64,000 nucleotides of DNA, from positions 434,001 to 498,000 of the forward strand of contig NZ_VCEI01000011.1 in the NCBI RefSeq assembly GCF_005860765.1, written 5' to 3'. The notes under the pieces are model-generated. The model had not been told where the DNA came from and ran no database searches. It saw nothing but the letters and a program-made list of their open reading frames with translations. Of the stretch, positions 55,515-64,000 are shown piece after piece. This DNA is from Dyadobacter sediminis (GTDB lineage: Bacteria > Bacteroidota > Bacteroidia > Cytophagales > Spirosomataceae). A program made the translations under genes and the position numbers. Positions within the stretch are counted from its first letter, which is position 1, and the number at the start of each line of letters is the position of its first letter.

Positions 55515-56264
55515 ATGACGAAAGAACAAATACAGGAAGATGTCCGTAAACTCGGAAAATGGTTTCATAATATCGATCTGAATGGTGTAAAAACAGCACC
55601 GGATCATTTTCTCGGTGATTATCCCAATTTCAAATACAGAAACTTCGCTCACGCCATTCCTGAAAACCTGGAAGGAAAAACCGTTCTGGATGTCGGGTGC
55701 AATGCCGGATTCTATTCCATTGAAATGAAAAAGCGCGGGGCTGAACGGGTTCTGGGCATTGATTCGGACGAAAAATACCTCGCACAGGCGCGCTATGCAG
55801 CTTCTACGCTGGGCTTTGACATTGAGTTCAGAAATATGTCCGTCTATGAAGTCGGCAGCCTGGGTGAAAAGTTTGACGTGGTGATTTTCATGGGTGTGCT
55901 TTATCATCTTCGCCACCCGCTTCTTGCGCTTGATCTCTTGTATGAAAATGTAGTGAAAGACATGCTGATATTTCAGTCCATGCAGCGCGGAAGCAATGAA
56001 GTAGAACCCGTCAAGCCGGACTATAACTTTCAGGAAACCGGAATTTTCAGTAATCCGAATTTTCCGCAGATGTACTTCATCGAGCACCGCTATTCGCAGG
56101 ACCCGACCAACTGGTGGATACCCAACCGGGCCGGAGCCGAAGCCATGCTGCGAAGTGCAGGCTTTGAAATCACGATGCATCCGGAACCTGAGGTTTACAT
56201 TTGCCGTCGCGGCGAACTTTCAGACAATCAGGCTCGTGCCGTTTATCCAGTTAAAAAAAATTAG
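55515..56264 (+). CDS. SAM-dependent methyltransferase, TIGR04290 (Rta_06860) type
   Basis: 249 residues, class I methyltransferase. SAM motif I VLDVGCNAGFYS (about residues 56-67), acidic loop GIDSDEKYLAQAR and motif IV VVIFMGVLYHLRHPLLAL (about 118-135). The N-terminus (TKEQIQEDVRKLGKWFHNID) and C-terminus (NWWIPNRAGAEAMLRSAGFE) fit the TIGR04290 group, which often occurs in glycan biosynthesis contexts. The methyl acceptor is unknown. The next gene starts 11 bp after the stop, so they form an operon. Confidence 0.88.
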   Translation: MTKEQIQEDVRKLGKWFHNIDLNGVKTAPDHFLGDYPNFKYRNFAHAIPENLEGKTVLDVGCNAGFYSIEMKKRGAERVLGIDSDEKYLAQARYAASTLGFDIEFRNMSVYEVGSLGEKFDVVIFMGVLYHLRHPLLALDLLYENVVKDMLIFQSMQRGSNEVEPVKPDYNFQETGIFSNPNFPQMYFIEHRYSQDPTNWWIPNRAGAEAMLRSAGFEITMHPEPEVYICRRGELSDNQARAVYPVKKN

Positions 56265-56275
56265 TAAAATAATAT

Positions 56276-57160
56276 ATGATAGAAGCAGTAAAATTCTGGA
56301 ACGAGCCGAACAACAAGTCCCATTGGGATTTTGAAATTGATAAAGACTGGGTAATTTTTTCTGAAATGGTCAAAATGGCGGCTCAGGCTGTAAAAGCTGA
56401 AAATTCGGGAATTACCAGGGTACTTGGCGGCATTTCCCCGATTGATCCGCTGTTCATTACCAAGCTGGAGAGCCGGGGTGCATTGGCTGATATAGATGCC
56501 ATTGCCGTTCACGGTTTCCCGCTCGACTGGAACCATTGGCAGATTAATCACTGGCCTGATAAAATTGCAGAAATAGAAGCAGTTACCAACCTGCCGATCT
56601 GGGTTACGGAAGTCGGAATTTCTACTTTCGGTGCAGAAGAAGTCCAGGAATTCGGTCTGCGCCGTACTGCTGAGCTGCTGATGGGCAGGGTTCAGCGCGT
56701 ACATTGGTACAGCCTTTACGACCTGCCGAAAGCTTGGGAAGCTACAACGCGTCACCGGGAGGCTGAAGGCTCATCGTATTACCGGCATTTTTACATGGGA
56801 TTACTGCGCGAAGACGGATCTCCCAAACTGGCTCTGAAACATTTTTCTGACTTTACACCGGAATTCGGGATTTGCCAGTGGTTCCATTTTGAGGATGAAA
56901 GACTGGAACCTGCCATTCAATGGCTGAGAAAACTGGGCGTTAAAAAACTGCGTACGGGTTTGAGCTGGGCCGATTACCTTCGCCCGAATGCGCACCAGTG
57001 GTTTGACCATATGATGAAATCGCTTGAAGAATTTGACCTTACGGTGACATTCTGTTTTACACCCGAAGCAAAAGGAGTTCAGCCGCATCATACCAGCCCG
57101 CCGCAAAATATTGCAGAGTTCGCCGATTTTTGCGTTGAAATGATGCGCAGGTATGCATAA
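56276..57160 (+). CDS. Clan GH-A glycosidase-like protein with circularly permuted barrel
   Basis: 294 residues, no signal peptide, so cytosolic. The acid/base motif FWNEPNN (Glu10) that ends strand 4 of a GH-A (beta/alpha)8 barrel comes at the very N-terminus. Strands 5-8 follow: ITRVLGGISP, IDAIAVHGFP, IWVTEVGIS with nucleophile Glu112, and RVHWYSLYDL. Only then come segments that read as strands 1-3: FGICQWFHFEDERLEPAIQW, VKKLRTGLSWADYLRP and LTVTFCFTPEAKG. The last helix, NIAEFADFCVEMMRRYA, is the one that normally leads into the NEP strand. Total length suffices for one complete barrel. Often such neighbours are called beta-xylosidase (GH39-like). Native start 11 bp after the methyltransferase stop. 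Activity unproven. Confidence 0.75.
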   Translation: MIEAVKFWNEPNNKSHWDFEIDKDWVIFSEMVKMAAQAVKAENSGITRVLGGISPIDPLFITKLESRGALADIDAIAVHGFPLDWNHWQINHWPDKIAEIEAVTNLPIWVTEVGISTFGAEEVQEFGLRRTAELLMGRVQRVHWYSLYDLPKAWEATTRHREAEGSSYYRHFYMGLLREDGSPKLALKHFSDFTPEFGICQWFHFEDERLEPAIQWLRKLGVKKLRTGLSWADYLRPNAHQWFDHMMKSLEEFDLTVTFCFTPEAKGVQPHHTSPPQNIAEFADFCVEMMRRYA

Positions 57161-57274: not shown

Positions 57275-58201
57275 ATGGGTACTGCAACGGAAAAGGAACC
57301 GGCGGATTTGTGGATGCAGCATATGCGCAACGGCGAATTTGAAAAAGTATGGAAGCTGAGCGACCGTGCTGTGGAAGAACGTGCCGGAAAGCCATGCTGG
57401 CACTGGCCGAGGCATTTGCAATATATTTGGGACGGAACACCGCTGGCAGGCAAGCGTGTTCTGGTTCGTTGCTATCATGGCTTGGGCGACACCATTCAGT
57501 TCATACGCTATATACCTCTGTTAAAAGAAATTGCCGGTGAAGTAATCGTCTGGGTGCAGGCGCCGTTGCTTCCGCTGCTCAAAACCGTTGAAGGCATTGA
57601 TCAGCTGCTGCCCTTGCACGACAGCAGTCCGGAGGCGGAATATGATGTGGATGTGGAAATTATGGAATTGCCGCATGTATTCCGGACTACGCTTGAAACG
57701 CTGCCTGCTCAGGTACCGTATCTGCATGCCCGTCCCGTTGCACTTTCCGGTCATGAAGGTTATTTTAAAGTTGGGCTGGTCTGGCGGGCAGGCGACTGGG
57801 ATTCGCGGCGAAGTGTTCCATTTGATGATCTGATTTCCTTGTTTAGTACGGAAAAGACGGATATTTATATTCTTCAGGCAGGTGCGGAATCAGCTGGCTG
57901 GAAACCCGGATATGGTATTCATCCCGGTGAATTTGATGTGAGTACATATGCCGGTGTTATCAAAAACCTCGATCTGATGATTTCGGTTGATTCCATGCCG
58001 GTACATCTGGCCGGTGCGTTGGGCGTTCCCGTCTGGAACCTGCTTCATGCCGACGCGGACTGGCGCTGGATGAACCATCCGCATGAAAGTGTGTGGTACC
58101 CAACCATGCGTCTGTTCCGTCAGGAAAAATCAGGCGAGTGGAAATCCGTTATAGATCGTGTTGCAGCAGAACTTGGAAAACAGAGCAGCAGTCTTTTGTA
58201 A
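57275..58201 (+). CDS. GT9-like glycosyltransferase (ADP-heptose:LPS heptosyltransferase-like)
   Basis: 308 residues. After a short helical N-terminus (QHMRNGEFEKVWKLSDRAVEE, remnant of a TPR-like region) comes the GT-B fold: VLVRCYHGLGDTIQFIRYIPLL (about residues 62-83), which has the heptosyltransferase-like GLGDTI motif. KVGLVWRAGDWDSRRSVPFDDL follows (about 166-187). The C-terminal stretch SVDSMPVHLAGALGVPVWNLLHADADWRW is the donor-binding region of GT9 proteins. Probably adds a sugar in lipopolysaccharide or another glycan. Donor and acceptor unknown. Same direction as the two preceding genes, 114 bp after them. Confidence 0.82.
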   Translation: MGTATEKEPADLWMQHMRNGEFEKVWKLSDRAVEERAGKPCWHWPRHLQYIWDGTPLAGKRVLVRCYHGLGDTIQFIRYIPLLKEIAGEVIVWVQAPLLPLLKTVEGIDQLLPLHDSSPEAEYDVDVEIMELPHVFRTTLETLPAQVPYLHARPVALSGHEGYFKVGLVWRAGDWDSRRSVPFDDLISLFSTEKTDIYILQAGAESAGWKPGYGIHPGEFDVSTYAGVIKNLDLMISVDSMPVHLAGALGVPVWNLLHADADWRWMNHPHESVWYPTMRLFRQEKSGEWKSVIDRVAAELGKQSSSLL

Positions 58202-58223: not shown

Positions 58224-59609
58224 CTAACCTTTCAGCTGGATATAACGTTTTTTTATTTCGCTGAACTTGCCCTGATGATATGCAAGACCGTGATATACAG
58301 CTGCAACCGTTCGTGCCCAGTTCAGGTAAACGGATGGTTTTTTAACCTTGCGTGCATAGCTGAAAATCCGGTTGCTCCATAAGGAAATATAATAGCGCGT
58401 CCGGTAAATCAGCTTGCGCTGCGGGGTAGGGGATTGCGAATCCGGAGCTACACGCTTCTTCGTTTTGGAACGTCCCGAAGCCCATGTAAGCCGGTATGCC
58501 AGCCCTTCACGGCGCTGGCGAAAGCCTGCCGCCTGCGTCTGTGCTACAAATTCTCCGCTGACCGATTCCAGATGAAGTCGTTTTTCAGCAATGGCCTTTT
58601 GTATGAGTTCTTCAATCAGCAAAGAGCGTACAACGGCAACATTCGTTCCTCTTCCGTCGGATGAATAAGGTTCCACCCAAGCGTCGCCAAAGGAAATATC
58701 AGCGGTTTCGGCCACTACGTCATCACAGAAATTACATGCATGATTCATGAAAAATCCCGCGCCCCAGTCTCCGTCCGCAAGATGCCACCAATCCTTGTTT
58801 ACCACGCGCCCGTCACGCAAGGTAAGCATGGCGTTGTACAGGTTTGCCGGACGGTCCGGATGCTTGTACCGGTAATCCACACGCTCGATCTCAGCGGACG
58901 GCACATCCATTTGCCAAGCAAAACTTTCTACAAACCTTGCGCTTTTCATATGTCCGCAAAAAAGTCCCAGCGTAAAAGGGATGCGTTCCCGGAAAAGCGG
59001 GTCTTCGCGCCGCAGCAAATGGACTGCTTTTATGAAACAGGGAATTCCGACTACCGCATACCGGCCCGGCGTATTGCGGATCAGGTCCAGCACACCGGAA
59101 AGTTCTATCGGATAATACCTTGACTTTGCACCGGCAAGGATTTCAGTCTCGCTTCTGGAAATGGTATAATGAAAGTAACGGTTATTGGTTTGCGGGTCAT
59201 TTTCGGCCACTACGTGTGCCACGCCGTCGATCAATCCTTTACGCATCAGCTCCGCCGCAACCCAGCTCACCATGCCGCCGGAACTGCCGAGCGTCCGGAA
59301 ATTATTTTCAGCCACATGCCCGACATACGCATTCTGGAAACGGCCCAGTTCGGCATTTTTTTGTGCAGTGTCCGCATAACGTTCGGCAGCAATTTCATTT
59401 TCATTTGCAGCGCCATAGGAAAACGGGCACGTCCGCGTAAAGTTTTCGGAACGTCGCTGGTACCAGGCTTCCGGACCATTCGGTTTTAACTGGCCAAGGC
59501 CGTCAAACTGCATTTTTACTTTCTCCGAAGTTTCCTGCGCTGCACAGCTGCCACACCCTATACACAAACCTGAACTGACGATATCCTTCGGACTAAGCAA
59601 CTGATTCAT
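58224..59609 (-). CDS. FrhB/F420-hydrogenase beta-subunit-like iron-sulfur protein in a glycan cluster
   Basis: 461 residues. Ferredoxin-like cysteines at the N-terminus (CIGCGSCAAQE at about residues 17-27, later TCPFSYG), an FrhB N-terminal region (FRTLGSSGGMVSWVAAELM) and the C-terminal domain (YAVVGIPCFIKAVHLLRR, FTLGLFCGHMKS, CNFCDDVVAETADISFGDAWVE). In methanogens FrhB reduces F420; in bacterial polysaccharide loci the domain is linked to pyruvyl-transfer systems, with unknown chemistry. It overlaps the pyruvyl transferase gene by 17 bp, so the two are translated together. Flavin/Fe-S electron transfer is inferred. Confidence 0.87.
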   Translation of the reverse strand: MNQLLSPKDIVSSGLCIGCGSCAAQETSEKVKMQFDGLGQLKPNGPEAWYQRRSENFTRTCPFSYGAANENEIAAERYADTAQKNAELGRFQNAYVGHVAENNFRTLGSSGGMVSWVAAELMRKGLIDGVAHVVAENDPQTNNRYFHYTISRSETEILAGAKSRYYPIELSGVLDLIRNTPGRYAVVGIPCFIKAVHLLRREDPLFRERIPFTLGLFCGHMKSARFVESFAWQMDVPSAEIERVDYRYKHPDRPANLYNAMLTLRDGRVVNKDWWHLADGDWGAGFFMNHACNFCDDVVAETADISFGDAWVEPYSSDGRGTNVAVVRSLLIEELIQKAIAEKRLHLESVSGEFVAQTQAAGFRQRREGLAYRLTWASGRSKTKKRVAPDSQSPTPQRKLIYRTRYYISLWSNRIFSYARKVKKPSVYLNWARTVAAVYHGLAYHQGKFSEIKKRYIQLKG

Positions 59610-60693
59610 TCTTTAATTGTTTGATTTTAAGTGCTTCATCAAGGTATTTGTTTGATGAAATGCGAAGCCGGTCAATGGTCTGGGAAATGACCGGGCTTAA
59701 AGGCTGGCTCAAAAGGTTGTTAACGACTGCTGACGGAATTTCATCACTGATCAGGTGCTGTTCGCCGCCCAGCTTGGACATAAGGCCCTGTACTTTGAAG
59801 CTTCTGTAGGAAGAGGATTCGCAGACAAACGGCTTTTCATTCCGGATTGCGAACACGCAGCCGTGGAAAAAATTGGTGGCAACTGCTTCCGAACGCGCGA
59901 TGAACTGTGCAAAATCATGCGGGTCTGCCTGGATCCATTGTTCATCGGCCCAGTCGTTACGGTACCCGATGCTTACAAGCGGAAGTTTTCTGCTATCTGC
60001 ATACTGCCTGATTTTACTTCTAAACGATTCCGTAAAATTGTGGCCGTACAAGGCAATATATGGCTTTTCCCAATATTTGTTTTCACGTTCGTCGGGATTA
60101 ATTGCAAACTGAAGGCATGGGTCCAGTACGATCTCGGGTTCCATGCCGATGGCATTTTTCACGATGGTCCACGAGTTTTCATCCCGTACCGAAATGCTGT
60201 CGAAATTCCTTAGCCGTTCAGCCCAGCTTTCTTCCAGACCGTATGAAGCCGGATAATTTCCGTAACTTGCTGCATAGGACACAAGTTGCTGAGTACGAAG
60301 ACCGTCGCCGTAAAATATCGGATTTCTGCCGAACCACGGATGATACAGATTCCAGACTTCATCGCTGCCGACCACTACAACGTCGTATTTTTCCATGTCC
60401 TCCGGCTTGTCAATGTCAAACCTTTTGGAAAGCGGCAACGACTCGAAAAGGGCGAAAAACTTCTCGATTTTTTCACGGTAAAGCGGATGGTCTGTTTCCG
60501 GAACATGCGTCGGCAGAACGGGTTGCATAGCGCATTTCCATTCTGCCAGGTTTATTCTTTTTGAATCATGATCAATAATGGAGGCATGGTGCCCGAGCGC
60601 CTGAATCCCTTCGGCAAGGCAGCGTGCCTGCCAGTAACTTCCATAATTGATGCAGCGGTGAAAAGTAAGCACCCCGACTTTTAAGACATCCAT
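59593..60693 (-). CDS. Polysaccharide pyruvyl transferase family protein
   Basis: 366 residues from the ATG at 60693 (MDVLKVGVLTFHRCINYGSYW); an upstream GTG at 60720 is less likely. GT-B-like pyruvyl transferase fold (WcaK/CsaB type): VGVLTFHRCINYGSYWQARC (about 6-25), YDVVVVGSDEVWN (about 103-115) and IARSEAVATNFFHGCVFAI (about 260-278), the last holding the conserved His near the active site. Adds pyruvate ketals from phosphoenolpyruvate to sugars of capsules or exopolysaccharides. First gene of the pair with the FrhB-like protein; convergent with the GT9-like operon. Confidence 0.88.
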   Translation of the reverse strand: MDVLKVGVLTFHRCINYGSYWQARCLAEGIQALGHHASIIDHDSKRINLAEWKCAMQPVLPTHVPETDHPLYREKIEKFFALFESLPLSKRFDIDKPEDMEKYDVVVVGSDEVWNLYHPWFGRNPIFYGDGLRTQQLVSYAASYGNYPASYGLEESWAERLRNFDSISVRDENSWTIVKNAIGMEPEIVLDPCLQFAINPDERENKYWEKPYIALYGHNFTESFRSKIRQYADSRKLPLVSIGYRNDWADEQWIQADPHDFAQFIARSEAVATNFFHGCVFAIRNEKPFVCESSSYRSFKVQGLMSKLGGEQHLISDEIPSAVVNNLLSQPLSPVISQTIDRLRISSNKYLDEALKIKQLKNESVA

Positions 60694-60964
60694 TCCTTTA
60701 TTCTCAGATTTAAATTGCACAGGTCATTTTCTGCCGGAACTTGGCCGGCTGTTTTTTATAGAATCAGTTCACGAAAGCCGGTATAAGTTCATCAGGCCAT
60801 TTGAGCACAAAACAGACCATTGAAAGAGGCATGATTATGTTCTGACAATATATTCTTAATTCCTTGTTTCCTGAAATTTTCCTTAAAATAGAATGCCTGA
60901 TAAATGCCGCATTTACTTAATGAAATGTTGAAAAACAGGTATTCCAAACGATATAATTACTATT

Positions 60965-61567
60965 ATGACTAAAATTCTGCTGATCCGTCATGCAACGAAT
61001 GACACAGTCGGCGTTCGCCTGAGCGGTCGGAGGGCCGGCGTACACCTGAATGAAGAAGGCCGGAGCCAAGCGCAGAAGCTGGCCGCCCAACTGAGAGGAA
61101 TGAAGATCCATGCCATTTACAGCAGTCCGCTGGAACGTGCCGTAGAAACGGCCGAGCCCATTTCGAAAATCTTGGGTATGGAAACGGTTATCTGTCAGGA
61201 TTTCCTGGAAATCAATTTTGGTGAATGGACGTTTAAAACCTTTAAAGAACTGGATGAACTTGCTCAATTCAAGCAGTTTAATTCTTTCAGGAGCTTTACG
61301 CGCGTTCCCGGCGGCGAGTCCATGCCCGAAGCACAGATGCGTATGATCGCAGGCATTGAAAAACTCTGCAGCCGGCATCCCGATGAAACCGTTGCCATTG
61401 TCAGTCACGCCGATATGATCAAATCTGCCGTTGCTTATTACACCGGAACGCACCTCGATCTTTTTCATCGTGTGGAAATCAGCCCGGCTTCGGTCAGTAT
61501 CATCGAAATCGGATACGGAACGGCGGCCATCCGGCTGGTCAATTATACGGGTGAGCTGGTGATCTGA
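60965..61567 (+). CDS. Histidine phosphatase family protein (phosphoglycerate-mutase-like)
   Basis: 200 residues, cytosolic. Catalytic RHG-type motif LLIRHATND (His at about 9), SSPLERAVETAEPI (second Arg, about residues 55-68), INFGEWTFK (Glu, about 84-92) and the distal catalytic His in IVSHADMIKSAV (about 142-153) are all present. Possible roles are removal of phosphate from sugar phosphates or intermediates; sugar-phosphate phosphatases are often found beside glycan genes. Divergent from the pyruvyl transferase. A strong hairpin follows the stop. Confidence 0.9.
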   Translation: MTKILLIRHATNDTVGVRLSGRRAGVHLNEEGRSQAQKLAAQLRGMKIHAIYSSPLERAVETAEPISKILGMETVICQDFLEINFGEWTFKTFKELDELAQFKQFNSFRSFTRVPGGESMPEAQMRMIAGIEKLCSRHPDETVAIVSHADMIKSAVAYYTGTHLDLFHRVEISPASVSIIEIGYGTAAIRLVNYTGELVI

Positions 61568-62781: not shown

Positions 62782-63900
62782 ATGGGCAAAACAGTTCTAA
62801 TAACAGGAGGCGCTGGCTTCATAGGTTCCCATTTGGCAAATGAACTTCTGGATAAGGGATACAATGTAAAGGCGCTAGATAATTTAAATGCACAGGTTCA
62901 TGGCAAAGACTGCGTTCGTCCGGAATACCTGAATCCGGAAGTGGAACTGATCGTCGGAGATGTCCGTGATCCTGACAAGGTAAAACAAGCGTTGAAAGGA
63001 GTGGATGCCGTTTATCATTATGCTGCCATGGTCGGCGTCGGCCAGAGCATGTATCAGGTACGGGAGTACACCGATGTAAACAATACCGGAACCGCTGTTT
63101 TGCTGGAAGCACTGATCGAAAATCCTGTTGAAAAACTCGTTGTTGCAAGCAGCATGAGTATTTATGGCGAAGGTCTTTATAAAGACAGTAAAGGTACGAT
63201 CAGCGCAGGCATGGAACGCAAGCTCGATCAGCTGAAAGCCGGGAGCTGGGAAGTGTACGGTGAAGACGGAAATGTCCTGACTCCCTATCCGACTCCCGAA
63301 ACGAAGAATCCTTCGCTGGCATCCGTTTATGCATTGTCCAAGTATGATCAGGAAAGAATGTGCCTGCTGATCGGCAAAGCATACAATATTCCTACCGTTG
63401 CCCTTCGCTTCTTCAATGTATATGGCACAAGCCAGGCATTATCCAATCCGTATACGGGCGTACTGGCCATTTTCGCATCCCGGATGCTGAACGGAAACGC
63501 ACCGATGATTTTTGAGGACGGAAATCAGCAGCGTGACTTTGTGAGTGTGCTGGATATAGCGCAGGCTTCCAGACTGGCACTTGAAACGCCCGCAGCTGAT
63601 TATGAATCGTTCAACGTTGGCAGCGGAAATGCTTACACCATCGTTGAAATTGCAGAAAAAATGGCACGAGTGCTTGGTAAAGAGCATTTAGATTTTGAAA
63701 TTTCCGGTAAATACCGCGTTGGAGATATACGTCACTGCTTTGCAGATATTTCAAAGGCGAAAAGAATCCTGGGCTATCAGCCTAAAATTTCCCTGGAAGA
63801 AGGACTTGTGGAACTGGCTACATGGCTGGAAGGCCAGACGGCAGAGGACCGGGTGGCGGAAGCAAAAAATGAATTAGTAACAAGAGGACTTACAGTATAG
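62782..63900 (+). CDS. Sugar-nucleotide epimerase/dehydratase (extended SDR)
   Basis: 372 residues, cytosolic. NAD-binding GGAGFIGSH (about residues 9-17), then Asp-linked AMVGVGQSMYQV, the Ser site SSMSIYGEG (about 122-130) and catalytic YALSK (Tyr at about 177, Lys at 181). Later blocks VALRFFNVYGTSQALSNPYTG, QQRDFVSVLDIAQA and FNVGSGNAYTI are typical of UDP-glucose/GDP-mannose epimerases and dehydratases. An insert of about 40 residues between the Ser and Tyr sites is longer than in GalE. Exact sugar unknown; it would supply a building block to the neighbouring glycan genes. Confidence 0.9.
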   Translation: MGKTVLITGGAGFIGSHLANELLDKGYNVKALDNLNAQVHGKDCVRPEYLNPEVELIVGDVRDPDKVKQALKGVDAVYHYAAMVGVGQSMYQVREYTDVNNTGTAVLLEALIENPVEKLVVASSMSIYGEGLYKDSKGTISAGMERKLDQLKAGSWEVYGEDGNVLTPYPTPETKNPSLASVYALSKYDQERMCLLIGKAYNIPTVALRFFNVYGTSQALSNPYTGVLAIFASRMLNGNAPMIFEDGNQQRDFVSVLDIAQASRLALETPAADYESFNVGSGNAYTIVEIAEKMARVLGKEHLDFEISGKYRVGDIRHCFADISKAKRILGYQPKISLEEGLVELATWLEGQTAEDRVAEAKNELVTRGLTV

Positions 63901-63933: not shown

Positions 63934-64000
63934 ATGGTGCAGGATATCTCCTTGAATAGAAAAGATATGGAACATGCAAATAGTGTCGGAATCGTACAAT
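63934..64000 (+). CDS. Start of a further gene, cut by window edge
   Basis: An open frame begins at the ATG at 63934 (MVQDISLNRKDMEHANSVGIVQ) and continues past the window, 33 bp after the epimerase stop in the same direction. A second in-frame ATG is at 63967. Too short to assign a family; the position suggests the same operon as the epimerase. Confidence 0.45.
   Translation, partial: MVQDISLNRKDMEHANSVGIVQ

Follow-up and report, generated by a model that had tools for sequence, protein, structure and literature searches.

A gene at positions 56276–57160 of the window (plus strand, 885 bp) encodes a putative GH-A-like glycosidase of 294 aa, designated P0001, whose (β/α)8 barrel is circularly permuted. 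The window is the whole 64,000-nt stretch of Dyadobacter sediminis DNA that was analyzed. The chain starts with the segment that is β4 in normal relatives, continues to β8, and only then gives β1 to β3. This order is common to a widespread family with conserved active-site residues, and the two swapped parts are homologous to an unpermuted paralogue in the same genome and to PslG of Pseudomonas aeruginosa. We consider it likely that P0001 is a permuted glycosidase of the GH-A type (PslG/GH39-like), that it is cytosolic and takes part in glycan assembly, and that the permutation predates the spread of the family over many phyla.

Gene, motifs and relatives

Clan GH-A is among the largest glycosidase clans and includes families GH39 and GH53. 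Its members carry the acid/base Glu after an Asn at the end of β4 and the nucleophile Glu at the end of β7. In P0001, residues 7–13 read FWNEPNN (56294–56314, plus strand), the β4 motif with the likely acid/base Glu10. Residues 109–114 read WVTEVG (56600–56617, plus strand), the β7 motif with the likely nucleophile Glu112. The segment β1-α1-β2-α2-β3-α3, which is N-terminal in normal relatives, spans residues 197–294 (56864–57157, plus strand), and the C-terminus is ...EFADFCVEMMRRYA. The coordinates, frame, motifs and terminal sequence given in the initial annotation were all found in the DNA. The start codon of the gene was also correctly placed 11 bp past the upstream methyltransferase gene, which ends at 56264.

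In native order, Pfam gave no more than a borderline match to a glycosidase core (PF11790, 23.2 bits against a cut-off of 21). No NCBIfam family was found at E up to 1, and no GH13 or GH70 family appeared in Pfam searches with the native or the rotated sequence at E up to 1.

The relatives used below were the best 80 of at least 581 related stretches, ranked by score, which favors full-length matches. All 80 matched from residue 1 or 2 to residues 286–294 in the same order, with 67–98% identity. With P0001 they made a set of 81 sequences.

Match to an unpermuted paralogue

A second GH-A-type domain begins 6.8 kb downstream of P0001. It lies mostly past the end of the window (63934–64000 in the window, plus strand, continuing to 65991; L092:9935-11992). 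The frame encodes 685 aa, of which about 300 residues form a GH-A-type domain in normal order, followed by an NAD-dependent epimerase/dehydratase.

P0001 matched this paralogue in two blocks with the order swapped. Residues 5–185 aligned with 123–298 of the paralogue (35% identity, E 2e-23), and residues 198–294 with 19–117 (35% identity, E 5e-14). When P0001 was rotated (195–294 followed by 1–194), a single alignment was obtained with 34% identity and an E value of 2e-46. The fusion of the two swapped blocks on rotation indicated that the order in P0001 is beyond chance.

The rotation was also scanned in 10-residue steps by Smith-Waterman alignment with the paralogue. The native order scored 270, and the scores over the scan ranged from a minimum of 229 to a maximum of 440 at step 190, which adjoins the predicted cut (194/195).

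The same comparison was extended to the whole family set of 81 and to 20 fused domains (one a duplicate, L100 being the same as L104). The mean score was 251 in native order versus 377 after rotation. Shuffled members, shuffled once each and compared with the first five fused domains, scored 64 at most. Rotation gave no gain in 45 of the 1620 member-domain pairs. All 45 involved the divergent fused domain L122, and thus made up 45 of its 81 pairs; its profile score was likewise unchanged. With the native family profile, each of the 20 fused GH domains was hit as two domains; with the rotated profile, 19 of them were hit as one.

Comparison with PslG and other barrels

In native order, P0001 found no PDB sequence at E up to 10, nor did phmmer find one at E up to 1. 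Rotated at residue 197, it matched PslG with an E value of 3.8e-6 in one stretch (4–282 against 25–319), and the alignment had no gap at the new junction.

Profiles gave the same picture. The native profile of all 81 sequences found PslG at E 6.3e-7 as two swapped segments (198–293 against 22–128, and 3–153 against 132–301). A profile of 8 of the 81 sequences found PslG in two stretches at E 8.4e-7 in native order, and in one stretch at E 3.4e-12 when rotated. The unpermuted fused domain alone found no PDB entry by phmmer (E up to 1), so the link to PslG rests on the permuted family.

In the rotated alignment, Glu10 was paired with PslG chain position 139 and Glu112 with position 250. The structural alignment implies an offset of 26 to the entry numbering, and these positions are thus E165 and E276. 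Both are named as catalytic residues of PslG in the available parts of PMC6813494 and PMC9075953.

Among the PDB matches of the rotated 8-sequence profile (E up to 10) there was no GH13/GH70-type chain, and the only matches of a non-GH-A type were two phage gateway proteins (E 0.34–0.36).

The initial annotation had proposed, as a test of the permutation, whether the rotated sequence aligns markedly better than the native one to GH-A families. This was clearly so with a whole barrel, that of PslG or the paralogue. With Pfam the scores were nearly unchanged (PF11790 from 23.2 to 24.1 bits; GH53 from 14.7 to 18.1 bits) and were close to uninformative, because these models match only stretches within β4–β8. 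The GH53 match to rotated P0001 also took in the helix before β4.

Predicted structure

An AlphaFold2 model was built from the 81-row alignment. P0001 was predicted to form one complete (β/α)8 barrel in the order β4–β8 followed by β1–β3, with a mean pLDDT of 91.4 and a pTM of 0.90 (the five models spanned 91.4 to 85.8 pLDDT). The model thus shows the single closed barrel that the initial annotation had suggested looking for.

The modeled strands are residues 2–7, 47–53, 75–80, 108–113, 141–145, 197–200, 224–230 and 254–260, each with a helix after it. The last helix is 279–293, and the chain runs from β4 to α3 with almost no spare residues at the ends. Only three residues separate the helix at 187–193 from the strand at 197–200. 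The lowest confidence was at residues 151–170 (block means 59 and 54). N9 and E10 come directly after β4 in the model, and E112 lies within β7. Among the features of clan GH-A, the (β/α)8 barrel and the Glu residues at β4 and β7 were present, and the β1-to-β8 chain order was absent.

Structural alignment by VIA-align placed TIM barrels across residues 1–294; the best was a designed barrel (Z 13.6, 218 residues, 3.7 Å). For PslG (9g17), Z was 12.0, with 175 residues superposed at 2.4 Å and a low identity of 21%, and the alignment covered model residues 1–195 only. This restriction to the β4–β8 part was expected from an order-bound aligner and a permuted barrel. The whole-model matches from Foldseek were, as expected for the same reason, weak and to mixed TIM barrels, the best being a sugar epimerase (E 8.8e-5, TM 0.40). 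That no clean full-length GH-A match was among them counts against the GH-A reading.

Gene neighborhood

The upstream gene (55515–56264, plus strand) encodes a TIGR04290 family methyltransferase (NCBIfam, 391.5 bits against a cut-off of 300). Downstream are a GT9-like protein (57275–58201, plus strand; PF01075, 20.4 bits, below the cut-off of 22; relatives at 39 of the 80 loci) and an FrhB/FdhB-type protein (58224–59609, minus strand; PF04432 and PF04422; 23 of 80). These are followed by a polysaccharide pyruvyl transferase family protein (59593–60720, minus strand; PF04230, 115.6 bits; 23 of 80), a histidine phosphatase family protein (60965–61567, plus strand; TIGR03848, 175.9 bits, below the cut-off of 203.85; 44 of 80), and an NAD-dependent epimerase/dehydratase (62782–63900, plus strand; PF01370, 175.9 bits; 23 of 80). 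The FrhB-type and pyruvyl-transferase-type genes (58224–60720) overlap by 17 bp, and their relatives occurred together at 23 of the 80 loci.

Farther downstream in the same genome are genes for two oxidoreductases (an MDR dehydrogenase and a Gfo/Idh protein), for a glycosyltransferase that has group 1/family 4 domains, and for three Glyco_trans_1_2 proteins. The nearest NCBIfam families for the two oxidoreductases were scyllo-inosose 3-dehydrogenase IolM and inositol 2-dehydrogenase, both far below cut-off.

The initial annotation had placed the gene next to a methyltransferase and a glycosyltransferase. The former stood, and the latter was found only as the sub-threshold GT9 match. A relative of a cluster glycosyltransferase was found at 65 of the 80 loci, the GT9-like protein being counted in. 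A TIGR04290 relative was present at 40 of the 80 loci, and was directly upstream of the permuted gene at 38 of the 78 loci with enough upstream DNA. The initial annotation had asked whether homologues beside such a methyltransferase have the permuted order in common; these 38 did, and the restriction of the adjacency to them counts against the proposed role.

The cassette of Azospirillum brasilense (L095, 4284-14927) contains a myo-inositol-1-phosphate synthase gene and one for a TIGR04295 B12-binding radical SAM protein, hinting at an inositol-containing product. That the product of the cassette contains inositol and is methylated is a guess from the neighbors. In this annotated stretch no gene is named a flippase, polymerase or initiating transferase; its gene table is possibly incomplete, with one 584-aa 'hypothetical' protein.

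Sinorhizobium meliloti 1021, a model organism open to genetic work, has relatives of 13 of the 15 searched cluster genes within 33 kb of its pSymB (L094, 241009-273890). The two exceptions were the GT9-like gene, for which nothing was found, and the fused gene, whose match was confined to the epimerase part. The S. meliloti relative of P0001 had no NCBIfam family at 1e-10.

The cassette is common to Bacteroidota, Proteobacteria (S. meliloti pSymB included), Acidobacteria and Myxobacteria, and was not found in the literature searched. These searches returned nothing for TIGR04290 or TIGR04295, for CgeB with cluster terms, or for Rta_06860. Nor did they return anything for the name 'rhizo-twelve' or for SMb20240, SMb20241 and SMb20242, the S. 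meliloti tags as guessed from map position.

Proposed function

In the single barrel that the model predicts, Glu10 would be the acid/base and Glu112 the nucleophile of a retaining enzyme. By a two-step retaining mechanism, P0001 would hydrolyze or transfer a glycosidic bond. Its substrate may be a glycan or glycoside under assembly by the neighboring glycosyltransferases, epimerases, methyltransferase and pyruvyl transferase. P0001 might trim, release or transfer an intermediate, by analogy with the service of PslG to Psl. The location is probably cytosolic, because the chain starts inside strand β4 and leaves no room for a leader. A cytosolic role in glycan assembly, as first suggested in the initial annotation, is plausible from the leaderless start and the neighbors. 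Most probably P0001 would act there as a retaining enzyme, either a glycosidase or a transglycosidase.

PslG is among the closest known systems. Its catalytic Glu residues are likewise on β4 and β7, and segments from both halves of its barrel align with P0001 after rotation (PDB 4zn2, 5bx9 and 9g17). It is encoded in an exopolysaccharide assembly cluster, according to the accessible text of PMC6813494 and PMC9075953, and P0001 also lies in a setting that resembles glycan assembly. The available part of PMC10485009 assigns PslG to GH39. PMC6813494, as far as its text was accessible, states that loss of the pslG gene or of its two Glu residues cut Psl production, and also that a second group did not see this dependence. 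Unlike P0001, PslG has the normal strand order and a longer chain, and is located in the inner membrane/periplasm.

The fused paralogue resembles P0001 over the barrel after rotation, and differs from it in its normal order, its fusion and, in some rows of its type, the loss of one catalytic Glu. All five genomes of the genus with the permuted gene also held a long frame with a normal-order GH domain, 6.5–6.8 kb away. Such a fused frame (677–744 aa) was found in 16 of the 36 genomes searched, which were hand-chosen from the 80 loci and were mostly named strains on large contigs. The epimerase part was present in all 20 fused frames compared. One catalytic Glu was gone in 4 of the 19 fused rows compared by residue (L122 left out; 18 distinct, since L100 = L104): the nucleophile was replaced by Ala in three, and the acid/base motif was lost in one. 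The fusion of a GH-A domain to an epimerase is odd, and in some lineages it may be a scaffold or pseudo-enzyme.

A bolder proposal joins these points. The permuted family would be a cytosolic transglycosidase or glycan-releasing enzyme of a so far undescribed assembly pathway, the product of which is perhaps an O-methylated, inositol-linked glycan. It would work beside the unpermuted, partly catalytically dead GH-A domain fused to the epimerase, which would perhaps serve as a scaffold or substrate guide. We regard this full scheme as rather unlikely.

The decay of the fused partner in those four rows shows that GH-A domains in this pathway can lose their catalytic residues. P0001 might by the same token have a real permuted barrel and no longer be a glycosidase, acting in the cassette as a carbohydrate-binding or scaffold protein. 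On the other hand, neither catalytic Glu was lost in any of the 81 permuted sequences. Asn9, Glu10, His79, Glu112, Trp144, Gln201, Arg226 and many more residues were invariant in 81/81, including the Asn before Glu10 and residues on β1, β2 and β8 (Gln201, Arg226 and Trp144). This conservation makes a non-catalytic P0001 improbable, and favors an active glycosidase.

Among the matches listed, the plasmid records that annotate the gene name it beta-xylosidase, as does the record of Azospirillum brasilense, and an ordinary catabolic enzyme of this kind would fit the weak matches of the rotated 8-sequence profile to GH39 beta-xylosidases (1px8 and others; best E 0.033, the rest weaker). PslG was matched far better (3.4e-12), there is no space for a leader at the start of the chain, and the neighbors are mostly of the assembly type. 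A catabolic beta-xylosidase is for these reasons very unlikely, and the public name is probably misleading. The assembly role remains our preferred reading.

Chain ends, spread and origin of the family

In the 81 sequences, the window's own included, a start codon was present at residue 1 or one before it in 80. Upstream of residue 1, an in-frame stop was reached after no more than 5 codons in 16 and no more than 15 codons in 29. The C-terminus was at most 4 residues from residue 294 in 56, and the longest tail was 54 residues. These stops, starts and C-termini point to the permuted chain as the entire protein.

A fragment, an accidental join of two half-genes or a local rearrangement, for which nothing speaks apart from the unusual order itself, has next to no probability in view of these ends, the confident single-barrel model, and the same order with nearly the same start in all of the best 80 of at least 581 relatives. 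The initial annotation was right that P0001 is no mere fragment, and a rearrangement confined to one genome, which it had named as a possible refutation, was not seen. The circular permutation that it had proposed is supported by the paralogue, by the rotated versus native comparison with PslG, by the model, and by the occurrence of the order in 12 taxonomic groups.

Permuted barrel glycosidases are already known, namely the GH70 glucansucrases, permuted relatives of GH13. In them, as in P0001, a (β/α)8 barrel of the glycosidase type is naturally permuted, and the cut lies close to that of P0001. GH70 enzymes belong to clan GH-H, synthesize α-glucans, and are discontiguous multidomain proteins. 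P0001, unlike them, is a 294-aa single-domain protein of the GH-A type and starts one element later, at β4. The available text of PMC4919382 places the start of the GH70 chains at α3 and gives duplication as the proposed route of their permutation.

A similar route, by analogy with GH70, would be the simplest for P0001. Probably after a tandem duplication, the outer halves were lost, so that the chain would open at β4 and close with helix α3, and a short link ahead of β1 would connect the former termini. The permutation would be older than the spread of the family over many phyla.

As in the initial annotation, which knew of no described class of permuted GH-A enzymes, no permuted GH-A family was found in the literature searched, which left most subscription papers outside and included the accessible parts of PMC10485009 and PMC13105402. 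The family is a natural, widespread and compact circular permutation in clan GH-A. With permuted and unpermuted homologues in one gene cluster, it offers a direct way to test how strand order affects folding and catalysis.

The distribution of the permuted gene is patchy. Within the genus, 5 of 48 genomes had it. At phylum level, a sample of 395 genomes gave the full-length gene only in the window's own, and the match in the other 8 matching genomes spanned only about residues 4–122. Bacteroidota-titled loci made up 18 of the best 80. The 81-row tree gave 12 groups labeled from record titles, with 4 rows in none. Metagenome bins may be mislabeled; one locus with the title Williamsia (L028) grouped with Bacteroidota. 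Three Lysobacteraceae loci (L033, L056 and L078), together with L041 and L053, nested inside the Bacteroidota branch. This nesting, together with the downstream genes that these loci have in common with Bacteroidota, suggests transfer of the cassette.
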